Assembly: GCA_002779995.1 (NCBI GenBank)
Contig: PEWX01000104.1
Coordinates: 1-50,086 of the forward strand
From: Piscirickettsiaceae bacterium CG07_land_8_20_14_0_80_44_28
GTDB lineage: Bacteria; Pseudomonadota; Gammaproteobacteria; Thiomicrospirales; Thiomicrospiraceae
Reading direction: 5' to 3'
DNA length: 50,086 nucleotides
Translations under genes and position numbers: made by a program
Notes under the pieces: generated by a model
Databases searched by the model: none
The model's input: only the letters and a program-made list of their open reading frames with translations
Told to the model about the DNA's origin: nothing
In this document: piece by piece, positions 28,119-50,086 of the stretch
Numbering within the stretch: position 1 is the stretch's first letter
How the letters are laid out: each line of letters opens with the position of its first letter

Positions 28119-30860
28119 TTAACTCAGCTTGCCGTGACAGTGCTTGTATTTTTTACCCGAGCCACAAGGACAAGGATCATTACGCCCAACTTTTGGGGTT
28201 TCTCTCCGATAAGTCCCCTCTTCTGCCGTTTGCTGATTCACCGTATCGGCAGCCGTTTCTTTTAAACCCTCTGAAATGGATTTTGCTACCGGATGCACGG
28301 CTTCAACCTGCTGAGGGCGTTCTTCTAATTGCTGCTGTTCATAAGCATCTACATCTTCCGAACCGCGTATTTGAACCCTCGATAAGGTTTGAATGGTTTC
28401 AAACATCACTTCATCTAAGAACGCTTCAAACATTTGCGCAGCAGAGGTACGATATTCTTGGAAAGGATCTTTTTGCGCAAACCCTTTTAAGTGAATCCAG
28501 CGACGCAAATAATCCATTTCATTGAGATGTTCACGCCATTGTTTATCAATGGTTCTCAATAGCACTTCTTTTTCAAAATGATGGCGAGTGGTTTTATCAA
28601 TTTGCGCCATTTTTTGATGATATTCCGCTTTCATGGCTTCAACTAAGCGGGTTCGTAATTTCTCTTCGTACAAACTTTTATCTTCGGCCAACCAATCTGA
28701 TAGGGGGACTTCGATACCAAAATCTTCATCAATCTGTCTTTCTAAACCATCAATATCCCATTGTTCTTCAATTGAACCCGGTGGCACAAATCCTGCCATC
28801 GTATTCTCAATGACATTCGCTCTTAAAGAATCAATAATGTCAGAAACATCCTCCTCTTCCATCAACTCATTGCGCTGAGAATAGACCACTTTACGCTGTT
28901 CATTGGCAATATTGTCAAATTTCAGTAAGTTCGCACGTTCATCTTGATGCATGCGTTCAACTTGTTTCTGAGCACGTTCAATCGACTTAGAAACCATTTT
29001 GTGCTCAATCGGTTCGTCAGATTTCATTCCCAATCGACGCATCATGTTTTTGACTTTTTCTGATGCAAAGCGACGCATTAGATCATCATCTAACGAAAGA
29101 TAAAAACGGGTTGCCCCGGGATCGCCTTGACGACCCGAACGACCCCGTAACTGATTATCAATTCGACGGGATTCATGGCGTTCCGAGCCTAAAACTAATA
29201 AGCCTCCACTGGCGATGACAGCATCATGACGCATTTGCCAATCCGCTTTTACCTGAGCGATTTCTTCCGGCGTTGGATCCTCTAGGGCTTCCAGTTCCAA
29301 ATCCAAATTTCCCCCCAGAACAATGTCCGTCCCCCGTCCGGCCATATTGGTGGCGATGGTCACTGCGCCCGGTCTTCCGGCATTCGCAATAATACTGGCT
29401 TCTTTTTCGTGGTGTTTGGCATTCAACACATTATGCTCAATCCCTTCTTTCTGAAACAAACCGGATAAAATTTCTGACATTTCAATGGACGCGGTACCAA
29501 TCAAAATCGGCTGCTGTTTTTCGACAATCTCTTTAACATCTTTGACAATGGTTGCCATTTTGCCTTGGATATCCAAAAACACTAAATCGGGCAAATCTTG
29601 TCTTTGTGGCGGATTGTGAGTCGGCACCACAACCACTTCAAGCTGATAAGTGGATAGAAACTCACCGGCTTCGGTATCTGCGGTTCCGGTCATTCCGGAT
29701 AGTTTTTGATATTGGCGGAAATAATTTTGGAAAGTGATAGAAGCATAGGTCTGGCTTTCAGCTTGAATGGAAACACCTTCCTTCGCTTCAACGGCTTGAT
29801 GCAAGCCATCGCCCCAGCGACGCCCAGCCATTTTTCGACCCGTATATTCATCAATAATAATCACTTCATTGTTTTGCACAATATAGTCGGTATTTCTTTC
29901 GTACAGTAGGTTCGCTCTTAAGGATGCATTCACATATTTCATTAAACTAATATGTTCAGCATCATAGAGGGAATCGCCCTCTTGCAAAATGCCCACTTCG
30001 ACTAACATGGCTTCAACTTTTGCGTGACCTTCATCGGTCAAATGAATTTGTTTGGTTTTTTCATCAATGGTGTAGTCGCCTGTTGAGGTTTTATTTTCTA
30101 AATCTTCAGTGCCTCTTTCTAAGCGCTCCACGAGCGGATTCATTTTTTCATAGAGTTCGGATTTATCTTCAGCAGGCCCGGAAATAATCAACGGGGTTCT
30201 GGCTTCATCAATCAGAATCGAATCAACTTCATCGACAATCGCAAAGTTTTGACCCCGCATGACGCGTTCTTCCGCAAAAATTGCCATATTGTCACGCAGA
30301 TAATCAAAACCAAATTCGTTATTGGTTCCATAGGTAATATCCGCTTGATAGGCAGCCTGTTTTTCGGCAGGCGCCTGCCCCGATAACACCACCCCGGTGG
30401 TTAGTCCCAAAAATTGATAAACCTGACCCATCCACTCAGCATCACGAGAAGCCAAGTAATCATTCACCGTAATCACATGCACGCCATGACCGGTTAAGGC
30501 ATTTAGGTAGGCGGGTAAAGTCGCAACCAGTGTTTTCCCTTCACCCGTGCGCATCTCGGCAATATTACCATCATGAAGAACCATGCCACCGACCAACTGG
30601 GTGTCGTAATGACGCATCCCCATGACCCGCTTACTGGCTTCACGCACCACGGCAAATGCCTCAGGCAATAGCTGATCTAACGTAATCGTTCCCTCAGCGA
30701 GCTGTTGCTTAAAGACAGGCGTTTTGGCTTTTAAGGCGTCATCCGACAATTGGGAGAGCGCTTCTTCCAAGACATTAATTTGCTGAACTTTTTTTGTATA
30801 TTGTTTGATTAACCGGTCGTTACGGCTGCCAAATATTTTTTTGAAGAGTTTTAAAGCCAT
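28119..30860 (-). CDS. secA: Preprotein translocase ATPase SecA
   Basis: ATPase motor that pushes Sec substrates through SecYEG. Walker A is [17 protein letters not shown], the DEAD-like box [20 protein letters not shown], and [10 protein letters not shown] and [28 protein letters not shown] belong to NBD2. The C-terminal zinc and SecB-binding motif [14 protein letters not shown] ends the protein. 913 residues, typical. No secM gene lies upstream; lpxC does. Confidence 0.98.
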
Positions 30861-31002: not shown

Positions 31003-31923
31003 TTAAAGTAAGATTTTACTGCTACCATATTGAATCGGTGGTTCTTCATCTGAATAAATCACCACTTCATAGGCTTCAGGATCGGCCATTAACGCCCGTA
31101 ATAGTTGATTATTCAATGCATGGCCTGATTTATGTGCCGTAAATTCACCAATGATAGGGTGTCCTGCCATATACAGATCGCCCACGGCATCCAAAATCTT
31201 GTGTCGAACAAATTCGTCCTTATCGCGCAACCCTTCCTGATTAACCACGCCATTATCATCTAAGCCAATTGCATTGTGCAAGCCAGCGCCCAACCCTAGA
31301 TTTTGAGCTCTTAACGTTTCCATATCCTTCATAAACCCAAAGGTTCTGGCACGACTGACTTCTTTAAAATAGGCAGTTGAAGAAAAGTCTAACGTCATTT
31401 TTTCTGCCGTCTGATCGAAAGCAGGATGATCAAATTCAATTGAAAAATTCAACCGAAATCCATTGTAGGGCAAAAATTTAGCCAGTCCACCTTGATTATT
31501 AGTGACTTCTATCGCTTTATTGATGCGAATAAATTTCTTGGGCGCTTCTTGAAGTTTCACGCCGGCAGCTTGCAATAAAAAAATAAAATGGGAGGCGCTA
31601 CCGTCCATAATCGGCACTTCATCAGCCGTAATATCAATATAAAGATTGTCAATACCAACGCCCGCCAAAGCGGACATCAAATGCTCGATGGTCGCGATTT
31701 TTGTAAGTTTACCGTCAGATTCTTGAACAATGGTCGTACACAACAGGGTTTCTTTCACCAAACTCGGTGTAACAGGAAAAGCCACGACAGGATGAACATC
31801 TATACGCCGAAAGCAAATACCGGTATCCACTGGCGCAGGACGCAAAGTCATAATGGATTTGTGACCCGTATGCAATCCAACGCCTTTCGCTTTAACCGTA
31901 TTAGCAAGTGTTCTTTGTTTCAC
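31003..31923 (-). CDS. lpxC: UDP-3-O-acyl-N-acetylglucosamine deacetylase
   Basis: Zinc enzyme for the committed step of lipid A synthesis. Zinc ligands are in ATIEHLMSALAG and HKILDAVGDLYMAGHP. The N-terminal KQRTLANTVKAKGVGLHTGHK matches the family. The start is GTG at 31923. 306 residues. ftsA lies only 65 bases upstream on the same strand, where ftsZ would normally come between them. Confidence 0.97.
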   Translation of the reverse strand: MKQRTLANTVKAKGVGLHTGHKSIMTLRPAPVDTGICFRRIDVHPVVAFPVTPSLVKETLLCTTIVQESDGKLTKIATIEHLMSALAGVGIDNLYIDITADEVPIMDGSASHFIFLLQAAGVKLQEAPKKFIRINKAIEVTNNQGGLAKFLPYNGFRLNFSIEFDHPAFDQTAEKMTLDFSSTAYFKEVSRARTFGFMKDMETLRAQNLGLGAGLHNAIGLDDNGVVNQEGLRDKDEFVRHKILDAVGDLYMAGHPIIGEFTAHKSGHALNNQLLRALMADPEAYEVVIYSDEEPPIQYGSSKILL

Positions 31924-31959
31924 GAATGACTCTTTTTTTCTGAAATAAAATAGCCGCGA

Positions 31960-31968
31960 ATTCTAACA
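31960..31968 (-). promoter_or_regulatory. Extended -10 promoter for lpxC
   Basis: TGTTAGAAT on the minus strand, 36 bases before the lpxC GTG, in the 65-base gap after ftsA. It suggests lpxC has its own promoter. The -35 region is weak. Confidence 0.45.
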
Positions 31969-31988
31969 TAAAGGCAATCGCATCATGC

Positions 31989-33242
31989 CTAAAAATTTTG
32001 GCTAAACCAGCTTTTCATTTTTGCCAATATTGAGCCGGTATCTTGGCTCAGAGCCCGCTGGCTATCACTATTAGGCTGATAGGACTGATGTTCCTTAGCG
32101 TACATTAACAACCCGACAGTGGTGGCAAATGCAGGGCTTCGAACCTCTTCTTTCAATCCGGAAACATCCTGAGGAATTCCCAAACGAACCGGCATGTGAA
32201 ACACTTCTTCCGCCAATTCAACCGCGCCTTCCACCAAAGAACTGCCACCCGTTAATACAATGCCTGCAGCAATTTTATTTTCAAAATCAGTACGTCTTAA
32301 TTCTGCCTGTATCAGCTGAAATAATTCTTCATAGCGCGGTTCAATCACCTCAACCAAAGTATGTCGAGATAAGCATCGCGCTGGACGATCGCCAACACTG
32401 GGAACCTCAATTTCTTCATCTTTAGAGATGAGCTGTGGGAGTGCACAAGCATATTTACGCTTAATGTCTTCTGCAGCCGCTTTAGGCGTTCTCAAAGCCA
32501 TGGCGATATCATTGGTCACCTGATCCCCCGCAACCGGAATCACTGCGGTATGTCGAATAGCGCCATTTTGGAACACGGCAATATCCGTTGTCCCCCCTCC
32601 GATGTCCACCAAACAGACGCCCAATTCTTTTTCATCTTCTGATAGCACCGCTTCTGAAGACGCCAGCTGCTCCAAAATCAAGTTATCCACTTTCAATGAA
32701 CACCGTTCAACACATTTGGTAATATTTTGAGCGGCACTAACGGAACCGGTCACCATATGTACCTTAGCTTCTAAACGCACCCCGGACATACCAATCGGTT
32801 CACGAATTCCACCTTGATTATCAATCATAAATTCTTGAGGCAGTATATGTAAAACTTCTTGATCCCCCGGAATGGCGATGGTTTGTGCCGCATCAATCAC
32901 TCGCTGTACATCTTCTTGCTGAACTTCTTGATGACTAATCGCAACCATACCATTGGAATTAAAACTTCCAATATGACTTCCTGCAATCCCCACAGAAACC
33001 GAGACGGCTTTAATACCAGACATTCTTTCCGCCTCATCAATGGCGCGTTGAATGGATTCGACGGTTGAATCAATATTCACCACCACCCCTTTTTTCAAGC
33101 CTTTAGACGGGTGGGTTCCTAAACCAACAACCTCAATACCACCGTCCCCTTTAACTTTGCCAATAATTGCGGCTATTTTTGAGGTGCCAATATCCAATCC
33201 AATAACGATATTAGTGTTTGAAGTCTGCTGCTTTCTTGCCAT
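31989..33242 (-). CDS. ftsA: Cell division protein FtsA
   Basis: Actin-like ATPase that tethers FtsZ to the membrane and recruits the division machinery. Phosphate 1 motif VIGLDIGTSKIAAIIG, phosphate 2 VCLVDIGGGTTDIAVF and adenosine motif GIVLTGGSSLVEG are present. The C-terminus ends in an amphipathic membrane-targeting helix (ILAKMKSWFSQNF). The ATG at 33242 is used; a GTG at 33254 is possible. The ftsQ stop is about 14 bases upstream. ftsZ does not follow. Confidence 0.96.
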   Translation of the reverse strand: MARKQQTSNTNIVIGLDIGTSKIAAIIGKVKGDGGIEVVGLGTHPSKGLKKGVVVNIDSTVESIQRAIDEAERMSGIKAVSVSVGIAGSHIGSFNSNGMVAISHQEVQQEDVQRVIDAAQTIAIPGDQEVLHILPQEFMIDNQGGIREPIGMSGVRLEAKVHMVTGSVSAAQNITKCVERCSLKVDNLILEQLASSEAVLSEDEKELGVCLVDIGGGTTDIAVFQNGAIRHTAVIPVAGDQVTNDIAMALRTPKAAAEDIKRKYACALPQLISKDEEIEVPSVGDRPARCLSRHTLVEVIEPRYEELFQLIQAELRRTDFENKIAAGIVLTGGSSLVEGAVELAEEVFHMPVRLGIPQDVSGLKEEVRSPAFATTVGLLMYAKEHQSYQPNSDSQRALSQDTGSILAKMKSWFSQNF

Positions 33243-33256
33243 TCGTGGTTTCACCT

Positions 33257-33988
33257 TTATTGCTCTATGCGGTTAGGATTTGCTTGCTCTTGGGTATTCG
33301 GGTGCTGTTCCGAGTCATCATTAGAACGTTTGATAACAAACCCATTACTATAGCGCAAATCATAAACTTGTGCGAATTTTCTTAGTGTCGGATCTATCTT
33401 GTTATAAGCTCGAATAAATCTTGTTATTTTGGCCGTTTGCAAGGCGTCATCCACCAACAAACGACTGCCCGACAGGAAGTCAATTTGCCAACTTTGATCC
33501 GTCTGCTGAGCCAGTTTTTCTATATGCCAGTCCATCCGATCAAATTGATGCTGAAATGTCGCGAGGGTTTGCAAAATTTTTGCAGCATTCAGCGGTTCTC
33601 CATCAAGCTTTACTAAATGTTGAAACCCATCAATCTGATGGGGATAAAAAATTTCACCGACCTGATTCAATAAGCCGTCCTCTTGCCAACGAGCCACCGG
33701 GGTTTGTTCAATCAACGCAACCCGCAATTGATTCGGCCATCGACGCGTTACTTGCGCTTGATAAACCCACTCTAAGCGAACCAGATCAGCATGAAGCCCT
33801 TCCAAATCAACTCGCCAAAAAGACTTGCCCAAATAGGGTTTAATCACAGTTTGCACTTCATCAGGGCTGAGTTGTTGGATTTTCCCTCGAAGCTGGACTT
33901 TAGACAAAACCGTCGTAGAGGAAACGGCGACCCAAACAATGGCACCCATCAATCCAATAATGCCTGCAAACAGCGCAAGTTTCTTCAC
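33257..33988 (-). CDS. ftsQ: Cell division protein FtsQ
   Basis: Bitopic membrane protein of the divisome. One membrane helix near residues 4-26 is followed by a POTRA domain (KVQLRGKIQQLSPDEVQTVIKPYLGKSFWRVDL) and a beta domain (VYQAQVTRRWPNQLRVALIEQTPVARW). 243 residues, slightly short of E. coli FtsQ (276). It lies 9 bases after ddlB and 14 before ftsA, the standard order. Confidence 0.94.
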   Translation of the reverse strand: MKKLALFAGIIGLMGAIVWVAVSSTTVLSKVQLRGKIQQLSPDEVQTVIKPYLGKSFWRVDLEGLHADLVRLEWVYQAQVTRRWPNQLRVALIEQTPVARWQEDGLLNQVGEIFYPHQIDGFQHLVKLDGEPLNAAKILQTLATFQHQFDRMDWHIEKLAQQTDQSWQIDFLSGSRLLVDDALQTAKITRFIRAYNKIDPTLRKFAQVYDLRYSNGFVIKRSNDDSEQHPNTQEQANPNRIEQ

Positions 33989-33997
33989 TCTGTATCC

Positions 33998-34945
33998 TTA
34001 TCGATTGACTTTAAGCGTTAAAGCCAACAACTTTAAAACCAGTTGCTCAAATGCCATACCAACCGCTTTGGCGGCCATTGGCACCAGACTGTGATCGGTC
34101 ATTCCCGGAACCGTATTCATCTCAATCAACCAGGCTTGGTCATTTTTATCTAACATTAGGTCAATTCGCCCCCAATGCCGGCCCCCCATCACCTCAAAGG
34201 CTTGTAATACAACCTTTTGAATATCGGCCTGCTGTTTTGTCGGCAAATTACTGGGGCAAATATACTGAGTGTCATGAGATTGATACTTAGCATCAAAATC
34301 ATAAAAATCATGATCCGTTTTTAACTCAATCAACGGCAACGCCTTGCCCTCTAAAACGGCGCAAGTAAACTCTCGGCCGTCAATCCATTGTTCAATTAAA
34401 ATTTCATCATCATATTGTTGTGCAAACGTCACCGCATCTTTTAAAGCCTCTAAATCATCCACTTTACGCATACCGATGCTCGACCCTTCATGACTGGGTT
34501 TTACGATCACAGGAAATGTTAAATTAAATAGAGAGACCGCCAAGGGTGCCGACGGAGAAACCTTTATAAAAGCCGGTGTTGGCAAACCAACCCCAGCCCA
34601 TAGCCATTTGGTTCTGAGCTTGTCCATTGCCAGCGCAGAAGCGGTCATACCACTTCCTGTATACGGCATTTTTAAAGCGTCCAACACCGCCTGAACGCCC
34701 CCATCTTCCCCCCATCGTCCATGCAATGCAATAAAGGCGCGATCATATTGTTTGGCAATCTCAGTTAACTGTGCCACCGAAGTGACATCACAAGCACGGG
34801 CATCGACACCCACGTGTTGTAAAGCTTGCGTCACCGCCATACCACTTTTCAACGAGATCGGTCTTTCAGCAGAATTCCCACCCATTAACACCGCCACTTT
34901 TCCAAGTTTCTTAACCAACCTTTGTTGATCAATCTGTGTTGTCAT
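33998..34945 (-). CDS. ddlB: D-alanine-D-alanine ligase
   Basis: ATP-grasp ligase making the D-Ala-D-Ala end of the peptidoglycan stem. VAVLMGGNSAERPISLKSG, FIALHGRWGEDGGVQ, the omega loop region and the ATP-grasp metal ligands in WLIEMNTVPGMTDHSLVPMAA are clear. 315 residues. It lies between murC and ftsQ, as in most gammaproteobacteria. Confidence 0.97.
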   Translation of the reverse strand: MTTQIDQQRLVKKLGKVAVLMGGNSAERPISLKSGMAVTQALQHVGVDARACDVTSVAQLTEIAKQYDRAFIALHGRWGEDGGVQAVLDALKMPYTGSGMTASALAMDKLRTKWLWAGVGLPTPAFIKVSPSAPLAVSLFNLTFPVIVKPSHEGSSIGMRKVDDLEALKDAVTFAQQYDDEILIEQWIDGREFTCAVLEGKALPLIELKTDHDFYDFDAKYQSHDTQYICPSNLPTKQQADIQKVVLQAFEVMGGRHWGRIDLMLDKNDQAWLIEMNTVPGMTDHSLVPMAAKAVGMAFEQLVLKLLALTLKVNR

Positions 34946-35008: not shown

Positions 35009-36391
35009 TCAGCGTTGTTTTTTCCATTGTTTGGCAAGTTGCCCCACATCTCCCGCCCCCATGACCAAAAGCGTATCCTGTGACAATAAAACCGACTCCA
35101 TCACGCTGTCCAATTCGGCTTTCGACTCAACATGCAAATTATCTTTGTGTCCTCGTAACCGCATGGCTTGTAATAATGCTTTGGAATCAAAGGCTGCAAT
35201 CGGCGCTTCACCCGCAGCGTAAACGTCTAGCAACACCACCAAATCCGCTTTCATTAACGCTAAAATAAATTCATCAAACAGGTCTCTGGTACGGCTAAAT
35301 CGGTGAGGTTGAAACACCAAAACCAAACGTTGATCCGGAAAAGCCGTTTTCGCCGTTTGCAAAGTCGCCGTTAATTCTGTGGGATGATGGCCATAATCAT
35401 CGACCAATGTCACCAATTTACCCCCAACCCGACACGCCTGATAAACTTCAAAACGTCGTCCGACCCCACCGAAATTCGCTAAGGCAGCTTGAATATCCCT
35501 TACATCGACTTTTAACTCCAATGCCACTGCAATCGCCGCCAGGGCATTTAAAACATTATGCACTCCCGGCTGGTTGAGGGTCACTTCAAAGCCGGGCGCA
35601 TCTGTTTGCTGAACTTCAAACTGCATTTTCAACCCCTTCTGAACAATTTTTGTCGCCCGCAAATCAACCTGTTCACCCCGGCCATAAGTACGTATTTTTC
35701 GAGACAGTTTGGGCAATATAGATTGAATATTTTGATCATCTCCACATAGAATGGCCATCCCATAAAAAGGCAAGCGATGAATAAATTCAATAAAGGTATT
35801 TTCAAGATTTTGATAATCGCCCTGATAGGTTGCCATGTGATCTTCATCAATATTGGTTACCACTGACATCATCGGCGATAAATGCAAAAAAGACGCATCA
35901 GATTCATCTGCTTCTGCCACCAAATAATGACTGCTTCCTAATCGCGCATTCGAATCACACTGATTGAGCTTACCGCCGATCACAAAAGTGGGATCTAACC
36001 CCCCTTGCGTTAAAATCGCTGCCACCAATGAGGTGGTTGTCGTTTTGCCATGGGTTCCGGCAATGGCAATGCCAAACCGCATTCGCATCAGCTCTGCTAA
36101 CATTGCCGCTCGCGGAATCACCGGGATTCGACAGTTTTTCGCATAAACCACTTCTGGATTATCCTCTAAGATAGCAGTAGAAACCACTACCACATCGCTT
36201 TGCTGAACATAAGCCGCATCATGGCCTAATTGAATTTTGGCCCCTAAGGCGCGAAGGTGCTGAAGGGTGTGATTTTCCCTGATATCTGAACCGGATACTG
36301 TAAAGCCTAAACTAAGACAAACCTCGGCAATCCCAGCCATACCAACACCACCGATACCAACAAAATGAATTTGCTTTACCTGATCTTTCAT
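35009..36391 (-). CDS. murC: UDP-N-acetylmuramate-L-alanine ligase
   Basis: Adds L-alanine to UDP-MurNAc. The N-terminal FVGIGGVGMAGIAEV, P-loop IAGTHGKTTTTSLVA, EADESDASFL and VDDYGHHPTE are the Mur ligase motifs. 460 residues against 491 in E. coli. First gene of the division cluster here; murG and ftsW, which usually precede it, are absent, and the suf operon lies upstream instead. Confidence 0.97.
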   Translation of the reverse strand: MKDQVKQIHFVGIGGVGMAGIAEVCLSLGFTVSGSDIRENHTLQHLRALGAKIQLGHDAAYVQQSDVVVVSTAILEDNPEVVYAKNCRIPVIPRAAMLAELMRMRFGIAIAGTHGKTTTTSLVAAILTQGGLDPTFVIGGKLNQCDSNARLGSSHYLVAEADESDASFLHLSPMMSVVTNIDEDHMATYQGDYQNLENTFIEFIHRLPFYGMAILCGDDQNIQSILPKLSRKIRTYGRGEQVDLRATKIVQKGLKMQFEVQQTDAPGFEVTLNQPGVHNVLNALAAIAVALELKVDVRDIQAALANFGGVGRRFEVYQACRVGGKLVTLVDDYGHHPTELTATLQTAKTAFPDQRLVLVFQPHRFSRTRDLFDEFILALMKADLVVLLDVYAAGEAPIAAFDSKALLQAMRLRGHKDNLHVESKAELDSVMESVLLSQDTLLVMGAGDVGQLAKQWKKQR

Positions 36392-36503: not shown

Positions 36504-36818
36504 TCAATGAAGCCAAGTTGGCTCAGGTTGATCAGGTGCAGACACCGGCTGTGGGATTAACCAATAATGCTGCCCCAGAACAGCAGCCAACTCAGAAGGT
36601 TTTTGCAGAGGATGGACGATTTCAAAATGGGAAAAGGTTGAGCCACTAACAAAGCCTTTTGCGACGGCCTCATCTAATAATTGTAAAACGTCAGCGACCC
36701 CCTCTCCTTGCAACGTTTCGGTGGCCGGATTCCAAAACAGGATTTTGGCAGGCCATGGTGAACCGGGAAGTGGCAAGCACTCTATACGAATCCAAACGTC
36801 GGTTTCTGGTTGCGACAA
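36504..36818 (-). CDS. Small protein of unknown function at the end of the suf operon
   Basis: 104 residues, starting with TTG at 36818 behind a full AGGAGG (36823-36828), so it is very probably translated. It lies 29 bases after sufS on the same strand. No family is recognised. It has one cysteine (IRIECLPLP, residue 14), no signal peptide, and a proline-rich C-terminus. The position suggests an accessory role in Fe-S assembly, but length and sequence do not match SufE, SufU or SufT. Confidence 0.75.
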   Translation of the reverse strand: MSQPETDVWIRIECLPLPGSPWPAKILFWNPATETLQGEGVADVLQLLDEAVAKGFVSGSTFSHFEIVHPLQKPSELAAVLGQHYWLIPQPVSAPDQPEPTWLH

Positions 36819-36847: not shown

Positions 36848-38062
36848 TTAACGCAACATGTCCAGGGATTCATAAATCGCTGCAATCAAACGATCAATAT
36901 CTGCTGAATGGTTATACACCCCAAAAGACGCGCGAATGGTTGCAGGCACTTGAAACCTTTGCATCACCGGCATAGCGCAATGATGACTGGCACGAACAGC
37001 CACCCCCTCTTGATCCATGAGCGTCGCCATATCATGCGGATGCGCCCCCTCAATCACAAATGAAATCACGGCACCCTTGTCGGCGGCTTGACCAATCACT
37101 TTCAACCCGGGAATATCAGACAATTTCTTTGTTGCTTCCTGCAATAAGGTTTGTTCATAAGCCGTAATATTCGCTAAACCGATCTTATTGACAAAGTCTA
37201 TTGCTGCCCCCAAACCCATAACGCCCGCCATATTGGGCGTACCCGCTTCAAACTTATACGGCAAAACATTGTATTGGGTTTCTTCAAAGGTCACGGAATA
37301 AATCATATCCCCCCCCCCTTGATAAGGGGGCATGGCTTCTAATAAGGCTTCCTTCCCATATAATACGCCGATGCCTGTCGGCCCATAAACTTTATGCCCT
37401 GAAAAAGCATAAAAATCACAACCGATATCCTGAACATCCACTGTCATGTGTGGCACGGCCTGAGCCCCATCCACCAAAACCACTGCGCCAACATTATGTG
37501 CCATTTCAGTCATGGCTTTAACGGGATTGATCGTGCCCAATGCATTGGACATATGCACCACTGACACCAACTTGGTTTTCGCGGTTAAATACTGTTCAAA
37601 ATCCTTTAATGAAATTTCACCCAAATCATTAATGGGGAGGACTTTTAATACAACCCCCAAAGCGTCACGTAACATTTGCCAAGGCACAATATTCGAATGA
37701 TGCTCCATCTCGGTAATCAACACCTCATCACCCGCCTGAAGGTTTTGCCGACCCCAAGTTTGCGCTACCAGGTTAATGGCCTCTGTTGTTCCTCTGACAA
37801 AAATCACTTCTTTGGTGGATGCTGCATTCAAAAACTGACGGATTTTTTCACGACTCCCTTCATAAGCTTCAGTTGCGCGCTCACTTAATCCATAAACCCC
37901 GCGATGGACATTGGCATTTTCTGCCACATAATATTGAGTAATACGATCAATGACCACTTGCGGTTTTTGTGACGTGGCACCATTGTCTAAATACACCAAT
38001 GGGTGACCATTTTCGAGTTGTTTTAAGAGGGGGAATTGGTTTCGAATATCAGTAAAATTCAT
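36848..38062 (-). CDS. sufS: Cysteine desulfurase SufS
   Basis: PLP enzyme that removes sulfur from cysteine and supplies persulfide for Fe-S clusters. The PLP lysine is in FYAFSGHKVYGPTGIG, the reactive cysteine in VRASHHCAMPVM, and HSNIVPWQ is conserved. 404 residues, matching group II desulfurases. Order sufB-sufC-sufD-sufS. No sufE is adjacent. Confidence 0.96.
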   Translation of the reverse strand: MNFTDIRNQFPLLKQLENGHPLVYLDNGATSQKPQVVIDRITQYYVAENANVHRGVYGLSERATEAYEGSREKIRQFLNAASTKEVIFVRGTTEAINLVAQTWGRQNLQAGDEVLITEMEHHSNIVPWQMLRDALGVVLKVLPINDLGEISLKDFEQYLTAKTKLVSVVHMSNALGTINPVKAMTEMAHNVGAVVLVDGAQAVPHMTVDVQDIGCDFYAFSGHKVYGPTGIGVLYGKEALLEAMPPYQGGGDMIYSVTFEETQYNVLPYKFEAGTPNMAGVMGLGAAIDFVNKIGLANITAYEQTLLQEATKKLSDIPGLKVIGQAADKGAVISFVIEGAHPHDMATLMDQEGVAVRASHHCAMPVMQRFQVPATIRASFGVYNHSADIDRLIAAIYESLDMLR

Positions 38063-38105
38063 ATAGGATTCTTATGCGTAGAGACGGTGCAATCAGTCAT
38101 AAAAC

Positions 38106-39425
38106 TTATAACTTTTGCACAATCAGTTTGGTTAGCCAAGCTTGCATTTCAGGTTGCGTCTGCCACTTATCCAGCGGTTCCAACAAAAAGGCCTGAGTAA
38201 TCAGTTGCATGGCATCGGATCGGCGAATGCCTCTAGCTTGAGCGTAAAAAATCTGATCTTCATCGATTTGCCCAGCCGCACACCCATGAGAGCATTTTAC
38301 ATCATCCGCATAGATTTCCAGTTGGGGCTTAGCATCCACTTTTGCCTTAGGAGACAACAATAGGCTTTTAGTGTCCATTTGCCCATCTGTCTTTTGCGCG
38401 CCTTTGGCGACTTCAATCATGCCATTAAAAACGCCACGCGCTTCGTCAGCTAATACCAACTTATGTAACTGGCGACTATGACCATGCAACGCCTGATGTT
38501 GTGTTAAGGTGCGTGTATCCATCACCTGTTGACCGCGGCCCAATACAATTGAGTCTTGATCGGTCTCGGCAGCATCCCCCTGTTGGGTCGCCACACTTTG
38601 ATGACGTGACAATAAGGCCCCTAACGCAATATAGCTGGTTTCGATATGCGAAGCCGCCGCTTGCACAAAATGCTGATGGTTAAAATAAAAACTGTTCTGA
38701 CTCAACTGTTGCAATACCAACTGTTTGCATTGCGCGTTTTCCCCCACCGTAATGTGACTGATGCCATTCACCCAAGTCGTTACTTCTTCTGTTAAACAAA
38801 CATATTGTTGCAATAGCTGCAACTGTGACGACTGCCCCAAACGGACTTGCAATCTCGGGCTCAGCACCTCAGCGGTTTGGGTTTGAATATATAAAATATG
38901 CAAAGGTGCTTCGACACTGACACGAGCGTCCAATTCAATGGTCACGCCTTGATCAAGCATTAACTCATTCATCCACTGAAAAGCGTCGGCCTTTTCGGAT
39001 AAGTTGATTGTTTGAATCGCATCGGCATCCGCCATTTCAATCGACAACCCATCCGGAATAAAATCAAATCCACCGGATAGTTGTTCTGAAAAAAACCCAT
39101 CCACAAACACCAAACGAATGGTGTCAAAATTGGGTAAAAACGTTTGAATTTGTGCCGTTGTCAACTCAATCGGCTCTTGAACATGCTTTAAGCTAAACGC
39201 TTGCTGCAATAGCGACTGGATGGAAGTATATTGCCAATCTTCATCCTTGCGCGTTGGCAACCCCATTGTCAGCAATTGCTGTTTGGCTGCTTGGCGCTTT
39301 TCAATTAAGGCTTTAACTGCCATCCGCTCATTTAAAGCGTCAGATAAGGCCATTATCTTGTCTAAAAATTGACGAGCAGCCGGACTCATTTTGCGAGGAA
39401 TAATCGAACTCATAGTGCCACTCAT
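38106..39425 (-). CDS. sufD: Fe-S cluster assembly protein SufD
   Basis: Scaffold partner of SufBC. The C-terminal beta-helix core has DAKPQLEIYADDVKCSHGCAAGQIDEDQIFYAQARGI, diagnostic of SufD. 439 residues. The ATG overlaps the sufC stop (ATGA at 39422-39425), so the genes are translationally coupled. Confidence 0.96.
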   Translation of the reverse strand: MSGTMSSIIPRKMSPAARQFLDKIMALSDALNERMAVKALIEKRQAAKQQLLTMGLPTRKDEDWQYTSIQSLLQQAFSLKHVQEPIELTTAQIQTFLPNFDTIRLVFVDGFFSEQLSGGFDFIPDGLSIEMADADAIQTINLSEKADAFQWMNELMLDQGVTIELDARVSVEAPLHILYIQTQTAEVLSPRLQVRLGQSSQLQLLQQYVCLTEEVTTWVNGISHITVGENAQCKQLVLQQLSQNSFYFNHQHFVQAAASHIETSYIALGALLSRHQSVATQQGDAAETDQDSIVLGRGQQVMDTRTLTQHQALHGHSRQLHKLVLADEARGVFNGMIEVAKGAQKTDGQMDTKSLLLSPKAKVDAKPQLEIYADDVKCSHGCAAGQIDEDQIFYAQARGIRRSDAMQLITQAFLLEPLDKWQTQPEMQAWLTKLIVQKL

Positions 39426-40204
39426 TTCTGGTTGTGTTGTAACTGCTGATGCGCTTGAATCATATCGTCATAGCCTTTTTCTTCTAGCGCATGCACCAAC
39501 TCAAATCCACCCGATTGAATAATCTTGCCATCAAATAACACATGGACAAAGTCGGGTTTAATATAATCCAAAAGCCGCTGATAATGCGTTACCACAATAA
39601 AACTGCGATCAGGCGAGCGCAGTGAATTAACACCATTGGCGACCACTTTCATCGCATCAATATCTAAACCGGAATCGGTTTCGTCGAGAATGCACAATTT
39701 AGGCTCAAGTAACGCCATCTGAAAAATATCATTACGCTTTTTTTCACCCCCGGAAAACCCCACATTCACAGAACGGTCCAACAAGTCTTTGGGCATTTTT
39801 AATAAATCAATTTTGGATTGTGCATAGCGATCAAAATCAAACATATCCAACGCCGGCAAACCGTTTTCCTCTCGAATGGCATTCACAGCCGTTTGCATAA
39901 ACAGCTTATTACTGACACCGGGAATTTCAACAGGATATTGAAAGGCCAAAAACACCCCTTTACGGGCGCGTTCTTCCGGGGACAAGGCTAACAGATCGTC
40001 ACCGGAAAATTCGACCGTCCCATCTGTAATTTCATAATCTTCTCGACCCGCAAGCACACTGGAAAGCGTACTTTTACCCGCGCCGTTTGGCCCCATAATG
40101 GCATGAACTTCTCCCGGTTTAATGTCTAGGTTCAAGCCTTTTAAAATGGGTTTATCGATTTCATCCGCTACTTGCGCATGGAGATTTTTTACGGTTAATA
40201 ACAT
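39422..40204 (-). CDS. sufC: Fe-S cluster assembly ATPase SufC
   Basis: ABC-type ATPase that drives the SufBCD scaffold. Walker A is IMGPNGAGKSTLSSVLAG, the signature VGFSGGEKKRNDIFQM (with the KKR variant typical of SufC), and Walker B LCILDETDSGLDIDAM. The ATG at 40204 has GAGAA 6 bases upstream and yields the family N-terminus, so it is preferred to the one at 40216. 260 residues. Confidence 0.97.
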   Translation of the reverse strand: MLLTVKNLHAQVADEIDKPILKGLNLDIKPGEVHAIMGPNGAGKSTLSSVLAGREDYEITDGTVEFSGDDLLALSPEERARKGVFLAFQYPVEIPGVSNKLFMQTAVNAIREENGLPALDMFDFDRYAQSKIDLLKMPKDLLDRSVNVGFSGGEKKRNDIFQMALLEPKLCILDETDSGLDIDAMKVVANGVNSLRSPDRSFIVVTHYQRLLDYIKPDFVHVLFDGKIIQSGGFELVHALEEKGYDDMIQAHQQLQHNQK

Positions 40205-40251
40205 AGTGTTTCTCATTTCATTATTTAAGCCAATTGGTCAGCGCCTAGCGC

Positions 40252-41739
40252 TTACCCAACCGACCCTTCTAAACTGATGGCTAAAAGTTCTTCGGCTTCT
40301 TGAGCGAATTCCAATGGCAGTTCACTAAAGACTTCTTTACAGAAACCATTGACAATCATCGAAATCGCATCCTGTTCGCTAATGCCTCTTTGCTGACAAT
40401 AAAACAGTTGATCTTCACCGATACGTGAGGTCGTTGCCTCATGCTCCATTTTTGCGGTGGCATTTTCCACTTCAATATAGGGGAACGTATGGGCGCCACA
40501 CTGATCGCCAATCAACATCGAATCACATTGGGTGAAATTCCGAGCCCCTTCGGCCGAGGGTAAAATCCGCACCAAACCACGATAGGTATTATCCGATTTA
40601 CCCGCTGATAGACCTTTTGAAATAATAGTGCTGCGCGTATTCTTGCCGATGTGAATCATTTTAGTGCCGGTATCCGCCTGTTGGCGACGATTGGTTAAGG
40701 CAACAGAGTAAAATTCTCCTATAGAATAATCGCCTTTCAAAATACAACTGGGGTATTTCCAAGTGATGGCCGATCCGGTTTCTGCTTGAGTCCAAGATAG
40801 CTTGGCATGAGCCCCTTCACAAATCCCACGTTTGGTTACGAAATTAAGAATCCCTCCTTCACAATCCTCATCTCCCGGATACCAATTTTGCACGGTCGAA
40901 TATTTAACTTCCGCATTCTCATGCACAATCACTTCGACCACGGCGGCATGCAACTGATAACTATCTCTAACCGGGGCTGAACAACCTTCCAAATAACTGA
41001 CATAACTGTTTTTATCCGCAATCAGAATGGTTCGTTCAAACTGACCGGTTTTTGCCTCATTAATGCGAAAATAGGTTGATAAATCGATTGGCGAACGCAC
41101 GTCTTCCGGAATATACACAAAGGTGCCGTCTGAAGCCACTGCCGAATTGAGCGCGGCAAAAAAGTTATCGTGATAAGGCACCACTGTCCCCAAATATTTT
41201 TGCACCAGCTCAGGATAGTCATGTACGGCTTCTGAAAAAGAACAAAAGATAATCCCCAGCTTTTCCAGTTCAGCGCGCTTGGTGGTGGAGACCGAAACGG
41301 AGTCAAAAATCGCATCGACCGCGATATTGGCTTTTTCAGCCGAATCCTCGCCATAAATCGGAACCCCCAAACTGGCAAAGGCTTTGGCCACTTCAGGATC
41401 CATTTCCATTGACAACCCCTTATTGCCAGACGGACAATCACTGCTACAGCTATTACACTCCGGGGCAGAATAGTAGCTATAATCTTGATAATCAATTGCA
41501 TCATAATTGGCTTTCGCCCAATGCGGCTCTTCAAGGGTTTTCCAGTGGGCAAATGCCTTTAACCGAAAATCGAGCATCCACTCCGGCTCATTCTTTTTAG
41601 CCGAAATGGCTCGAACAACCTCTTCGTTTAAGCCTTTTGCAAATGTATCCACAATAGTTTGTGTAAAAAAGCCTTCTTTATAGCTGCTATTTTTACTCAA
41701 AAGGTCATTAATCTCTTGATATTGTGTGGTTTCTGACAT
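40252..41739 (-). CDS. sufB: Fe-S cluster assembly protein SufB
   Basis: Main scaffold subunit of SufBC2D. It has the conserved cysteine-rich segment [14 protein letters not shown] and the C-terminal core with [21 protein letters not shown] and [19 protein letters not shown]. 495 residues, as in E. coli. First gene of the operon, behind a promoter overlapped by an IscR-type palindrome. No iscR gene lies next to it. Confidence 0.97.
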
Positions 41740-49484: not shown

Positions 49485-50086
49485 TTAATCACGATAAGGA
49501 TAATGGCCTCTTGCAATTAACCCTCCATCCAGGGTTAACACACTCCCCGTCATCCATTCAGAGGCTTTAGACAGCAAAAAGGCCGTTGCCAACCCCATAT
49601 CCTCAACCGTGCCATAACGCCCTGAAGGCATGGCCGACAGCCACTTTTTTTGCATCTTGGGTTCATTCAGAATATCGAAAGTCCGTTCAACGGGTACCAC
49701 GCCCGGTGCCAAACTATTGACACGAATGCCTAATTTCCCCCACTCCACAGCCTGTACTTTGGTTAACGCATCCAACCCCGCCTTTGAAGCGGCATAAGCG
49801 CCAAACCACTCACAAGTGGCTTGTCCATGAATACTGCTATTATTGACAATATTGCCCGGCAACCGCGCATTTTGACATGCCGTGGCATAAGCGGTGCTCA
49901 ATAAATAAGGCGCTTGAAGATTAATGGCTAGAGTTTCTTGAAAGGCTCGCCCTTGCATATCCTTTAGGCTTAAGGATTTGGTGATAATCCCGGCATTGTT
50001 GACTAAGCCATCTAAGCCGTTAAAAATTGACCAGATACCGTGTTTGATTTATAAAATCAAGCACGAATCTCATATTCTCGATCAAA
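49485..50086 (-). pseudogene. Short-chain dehydrogenase/reductase, partial and apparently frameshifted
   Basis: The C-terminal part is a normal SDR: LVNNAGI near 49990, NSS with a catalytic serine in VNNSSIHGQ, YAASKAG (Tyr-x3-Lys), and the SVLTLDGGLIARG end. The frame carrying it stops at a TAA at 50049-50051. The window's last bases in another frame read LIENMRFVLDFINQ, which looks like the preceding SDR helix, so a one-base shift seems to lie between about 50022 and 50055, perhaps in the A5 run at 50022-50026. The N-terminal Rossmann motif would lie outside the window. Substrate unknown. A sequencing error would make this an intact partial gene. Confidence 0.6.

Follow-up and report, generated by a model that had tools for sequence, protein, structure and literature searches.

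The window analysed here, a stretch of 50,086 nt, carries the downstream half of a dcw cluster in which ftsA is followed directly by lpxC. In the canonical gammaproteobacterial cluster the genes run mraZ-rsmH-ftsL-ftsI-murE-murF-mraY-murD-ftsW-murG-murC-ddlB-ftsQ-ftsA-ftsZ-lpxC. The junction of ftsA with ftsZ is highly stable among bacteria, which is often explained by the need for a fixed ratio of the two proteins. The relevant features of the window are:

28119-30860, minus strand: secA, the canonical downstream neighbour (curated family match)
31003-31923, minus strand: lpxC, now directly behind ftsA (TIGR00325, 357 bits)
31924-31988, no strand: the ftsA-lpxC gap of 65 bp, the vacated ftsZ site
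31960-31968, minus strand: TGTTAGAAT, an extended -10 element (TGnTAn[A/T]AT), the likely lpxC promoter
31989-33254, minus strand: ftsA, separated from ftsZ (TIGR01174, 503 bits)
33257-33988, minus strand: ftsQ (POTRA_1 and FtsQ_DivIB_C)
33998-34945, minus strand: ddl (PRK01372, 392 bits)
35009-36391, minus strand: murC, with which the downstream half of the split dcw cluster begins (TIGR01082, 552 bits)
36848-41739, minus strand: sufB-sufC-sufD-sufS, upstream of murC where murG would stand (sufS and sufD by curated families, sufC and sufB by Pfam)

The family matches agree with the gene names that the original prediction had read from the letters, and both of its statements on this region are borne out: ddlB-ftsQ-ftsA and lpxC-secA keep their places, and only 65 bp without an ftsZ remnant separate ftsA from lpxC. 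Searching with six FtsZ proteins (tblastn) gave no FtsZ hit above noise, either at the junction or elsewhere in the window, and Rfam and tRNA scans of the window gave no matches. ftsA is single copy, this being the sole over-cut-off match in the genome. Compared with the canonical cluster, ftsZ does not lie between ftsA and lpxC in this genome; the other genes have their usual order and orientation with mraZ first, and a break separates murG from murC in this genus. An open reading frame of 104 aa (36504-36818, minus strand) lies between sufS and murC and has no Pfam match. Read-through from the suf genes into murC-ddl-ftsQ-ftsA may occur.

The original prediction had suggested looking for ftsZ in the full genome (2.28 Mb, 122 contigs, 99.99% complete), and a profile search located exactly one full-length copy over the curated cut-off, on contig G000:C35, together with the head of the cluster:

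C35:11558-12730, minus strand: ftsZ, 390 aa, between rsmH and ftsL
C35:14268-14240: predicted mraZ promoter of this genome (sigma-70 consensus scan)

The encoded protein belongs to the FtsZ family (TIGR00065, over the cut-off), with GTPase and C-terminal domains and the conserved tail NYLDIPAFLRRQVD. Loss of ftsZ is ruled out by this intact copy. The gene order on C35 is mraZ, rsmH, ftsZ, ftsL, ftsI, murE, murF, mraY, murD, ftsW and murG; these genes make up the other, upstream half of the dcw cluster. The suf genes do lie upstream of murC as had been stated, but ftsW and murG, which had been called absent, are not missing; they are on C35. Since one contig of a relative (G006) spans both pieces, with 93 bp between the murG side of C35 and the window's right end, the two are very probably adjacent in the genome, which would put ftsZ about 30 kb upstream of ftsA. 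A short-chain dehydrogenase gene is seemingly split between them, with its N-terminal part on C35 (L032:1386-1700) and its C-terminal part in the window (49485-49958). About 1.5 kb on C35, with an ORF weakly matching PNP_UDP_1 and a second, unknown ORF, has no counterpart at this place in G006, and an insertion or a contig-end artefact is possible.

The window is Hydrogenovibrio-like: the nearest named FtsZ is that of Hydrogenovibrio sp. SC-1 (96%), and others come from Hydrogenovibrio, Thiomicrospira, Thiomicrorhabdus and Sulfurivirga. The order was sampled by one family, f1, comprising 63 genomes from 7 genera. mraZ-rsmH-ftsZ is the order in every f1 locus that could be read, with ftsL and ftsI next on contigs long enough to show them, and in the gaps taken from 34 f1 genomes ftsA is followed directly by lpxC. 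Comparing gene order in related genera, as the original prediction had advised, confirmed that the relocation is real: it is a rearrangement of a very stable junction, probably ancient and fixed, found throughout the order. We did not find it described in the literature searched, a search that lay outside most subscription papers on dcw evolution. A collapsed or deleted ftsZ in the assembly at 31.9 kb, which had been named as the outcome that would overturn the observation, could be suspected in a genome of 122 contigs; it is refuted by the recurrence of the ftsA-lpxC junction in independent f1 genomes, including single-contig ones, and by the location of ftsZ elsewhere in nearly all f1 genomes.

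The second break is confined to part of the order. Genus g2 has a contiguous cluster, mraZ-rsmH-ftsZ-...-murG-murC-ddl-ftsQ-ftsA-lpxC, and in g7 ftsZ and ftsA are about 14 kb apart, as in g2. In Hydrogenovibrio unrelated genes and then suf separate murG from murC; the suf-murC arrangement is also present in g4 and g6, the suf gene order of the window is repeated in G011, G014 and G016, and in some Thiomicrospira-like (g6) genomes the dcw halves are far apart. The simplest order of events is that ftsZ moved first and that the split between murG and murC came later. We also considered that the resident ftsZ was lost and a foreign ftsZ landed in the cluster head. The long stem (0.61) of the f1 clade in the FtsZ tree would fit such an origin, as would a family-model score of f1 FtsZ below that of most class members. 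However, f1 FtsZ groups with no outside donor, the internal order of the FtsZ tree (g2, then g7, g6, g1/g4) is that of the dcw tree, and the GC content of ftsZ is the same as that of its neighbours; we therefore disfavour a foreign origin as very improbable.

We then looked at the control elements on both sides of the move. Upstream of mraZ, 38/38 f1 loci have a sigma-70-like promoter that agrees with the consensus at 10 or more of 12 positions, in most cases TTGACA-N17-TATAGT, and all 38 also carry at least three GTGG repeats at 10-bp spacing before mraZ. With an MraZ gene present (Pfam match) and periodic repeats at its promoter, the cluster has the sequence features expected of an MraZ-controlled operon, and the GTGG repeats are likely the MraZ operator. 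TGGGN was tried as the MraZ box and proved inconsistent, whereas GTGG at 10-bp spacing fits; the repeat resembles the Mollicutes MraZ site, which consists of repeats of AAAGTG[T/G] (PMC8475190). A promoter of at least 10/12 between mraZ and ftsZ was found in only 2 of the 38 f1 loci, and no extended -10 was detected in the 200 bp before ftsZ in the f1 loci scanned. As this interval offers hardly any promoter candidate, an own ftsZ promoter was set aside, and the simplest reading is that ftsZ is served by the mraZ promoter, third in line; ftsZ might also have a non-consensus promoter within rsmH. Because canonical relatives carry the promoter-repeat block before mraZ too (9 of 21 loci), it did not arise for the sake of ftsZ. 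Hairpins directly follow ftsZ in most f1 members (here L032:11541-11556, minus strand), and the ftsZ-ftsL gaps fold better than shuffled sequences (mean z -3.0; 19 of 28 under -2). Against an attenuator, the hairpins are mostly without a U-tract and differ in sequence; perhaps they mark an mRNA end or a processing signal.

At the vacated site, a conserved candidate promoter element lies directly upstream of lpxC. The motif TGnTAn[A/T]AT occurs in 27 of the 34 f1 ftsA-lpxC gaps (shuffle mean 1.1, maximum 6), and six of the seven gaps without it belong to g6 genomes, where the gap measures only 16-47 bp. Since canonical ftsZ-lpxC gaps also exceed chance (10 of 38, 1.3 expected), the extended -10 element may predate the ftsZ move and have been kept.

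With moderate confidence we propose an ancient, fixed relocation of ftsZ behind the mraZ promoter, with MraZ control, lpxC read from its own promoter and a later split that uncoupled ftsA. In the ancestor of the order, possibly one shared with the family f82 described below, ftsZ would have been displaced from its site between ftsA and lpxC at the 3' end of the cluster to a slot close to the 5' head, with rsmH before it and ftsL after it. In that slot the mraZ promoter would most likely serve it, with MraZ in control; standing third rather than about fifteenth, it would gain promoter-proximal expression without the promoters that serve the distal ftsZ in E. coli. For lpxC, now without ftsZ upstream, the short gap behind ftsA would supply the extended -10 promoter. 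The later split between murG and murC, in Hydrogenovibrio and its sister genera, would have placed ftsA in another transcription unit, leaving FtsA and FtsZ to be balanced through separate promoters and translation. About 30 kb apart and with unrelated genes between them, the two genes can hardly share an ordinary operon, and they are probably transcribed apart in this genus. Our scan found no local promoter for murC-ddl-ftsQ-ftsA; ftsA is likely read with murC-ddl-ftsQ, behind the suf genes or a local promoter. The FtsZ tail and the FtsA C-terminus are ordinary and a ZipA match is present below cut-off, so that the protein partnership looks normal and the change would concern the gene supply. 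The promoters are predictions from consensus matches, which do not prove function, and these data do not separate selection from drift. The expectation that relocation would call for other control is partly upheld: the sequence suggests such control, with ftsZ behind the mraZ promoter and lpxC behind its own, but new control is not strictly required, as in Burkholderia cenocepacia only the mraZ promoter was active and the distal ftsZ is reported to be transcribed from it alone, under MraZ control (PMC7761207).

To see how rare such an arrangement is, we surveyed 173 genomes of the class outside the order that have both ftsA and ftsZ. In 166 of them the two genes lie within 2.5 kb; one apparent exception, G188, has ftsA and ftsZ each at a contig end with canonical neighbours and was counted as canonical (167/173). 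A single genome, G126, has them on different contigs amid unrelated genes (dispersed, 1/173). The remaining five (loci L137, L139, L148, L149 and L150) have ftsZ at the head of the cluster, in slots that differ from that of f1:

f82 (two genomes, G143 and G239): ftsZ-mraZ-rsmH
f116: mraZ-rsmH-ftsL-ftsZ-ftsI (FtsL just under the Pfam cut-off)
f35: mraZ-rsmH-ftsL-ftsI-ftsZ-murE
f30: ftsZ-rsmH

ftsA adjoins lpxC in all four of these genomes whose examined stretch included lpxC. In f82 ftsZ is immediately preceded by the promoter-repeat block, with nothing similar between ftsZ and mraZ, and would come first after the presumed MraZ site. A mixture-model tree of concatenated dcw proteins grouped f1 with f82 (99% SH-aLRT), and placing f82 with a set of canonical rows instead was rejected (AU p 0.003); a larger tree with a simpler model placed f82 elsewhere, and a six-gene set did not decide its position. 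Families f35, f116 and f30 are small and AT-rich, with long branches and uncertain positions. At least two origins of the head position are likely, though not proved. Every order consists of a cluster prefix, ftsZ and the remainder, so that ftsZ may have moved through tandem duplication and complementary loss, or else by simple transposition. As separate observations, three near-complete class genomes (G149, locus L238; G245, L240; G103, L239) have an over-cut-off ftsA with lpxC immediately after it and gave no hit for ftsZ in the whole genome even at E values up to 10, which would leave them with FtsA but no recognisable FtsZ; G149 is a single contig. G112 has two ftsA-family genes over the cut-off (C80 and C199).

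It is conceivable, though we think it less likely, that ftsZ was relocated by chance rearrangement (tandem duplication with complementary gene loss, or transposition) and fixed by drift without regulatory gain, the FtsZ level being set by its own weak promoters and translation. A single ancestral event would explain the whole order, the cluster halves moved again later without visible harm, and in B. cenocepacia the mraZ promoter by itself suffices (PMC7761207). Against this, all genera retained the head position of ftsZ although other parts of the cluster were split and dispersed, and in other lineages too it is found at the head rather than at random sites. Extending the favoured reading, a fixed relocation behind the mraZ promoter, to the class as a whole is more tentative: ftsZ may have moved several times independently to the MraZ-proximal head of the cluster in Gammaproteobacteria, into slots ahead of mraZ, ahead of rsmH where mraZ is lost, and behind rsmH, ftsL or ftsI. 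A promoter-proximal, MraZ-governed FtsZ supply might then be an alternative to the coupling of ftsA with ftsZ that was selected repeatedly.

Free-living bacteria of a cultivable order in which this junction has long been broken offer a natural test of whether FtsA and FtsZ have to be produced together. They let the FtsZ:FtsA ratio, cell size and the setting of the FtsZ level by MraZ be asked directly, and the other families with a moved ftsZ serve as comparison points. The regulatory reading proposed here for the order is coherent.

Compared with known systems, the cluster shares with the canonical gammaproteobacterial dcw its genes, their orientation and their order save for ftsZ, as well as the mraZ promoter with repeats and lpxC-secA downstream. 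It differs in that ftsZ is second to last and beside ftsA there, but third and apart from ftsA here; in addition, this genus has the split between murG and murC with suf genes between. f82 is like f1 in having ftsZ at the head, ftsA adjoining lpxC and a promoter with GTGG repeats before the head, and it is the sister of f1 under the mixture model; unlike f1, where ftsZ follows rsmH, its ftsZ comes first, before mraZ. In B. cenocepacia the order is canonical, with ftsZ distal and beside ftsA, unlike here (PMC7761207). In the mraZ-mraW-MG_223-ftsZ cluster of Mycoplasma genitalium ftsZ also lies close behind mraZ, and the FtsZ level, for which MraZ dependence is predicted here, does depend on MraZ there (PMC8475190). 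That cluster is a reduced one of four genes, in which the proximity fits the loss of intervening genes, whereas here all genes were kept and ftsZ moved. FtsZ rises in M. genitalium when MraZ is lost (PMC8475190), which gives a concrete prediction for the MraZ-ftsZ relation in this order.
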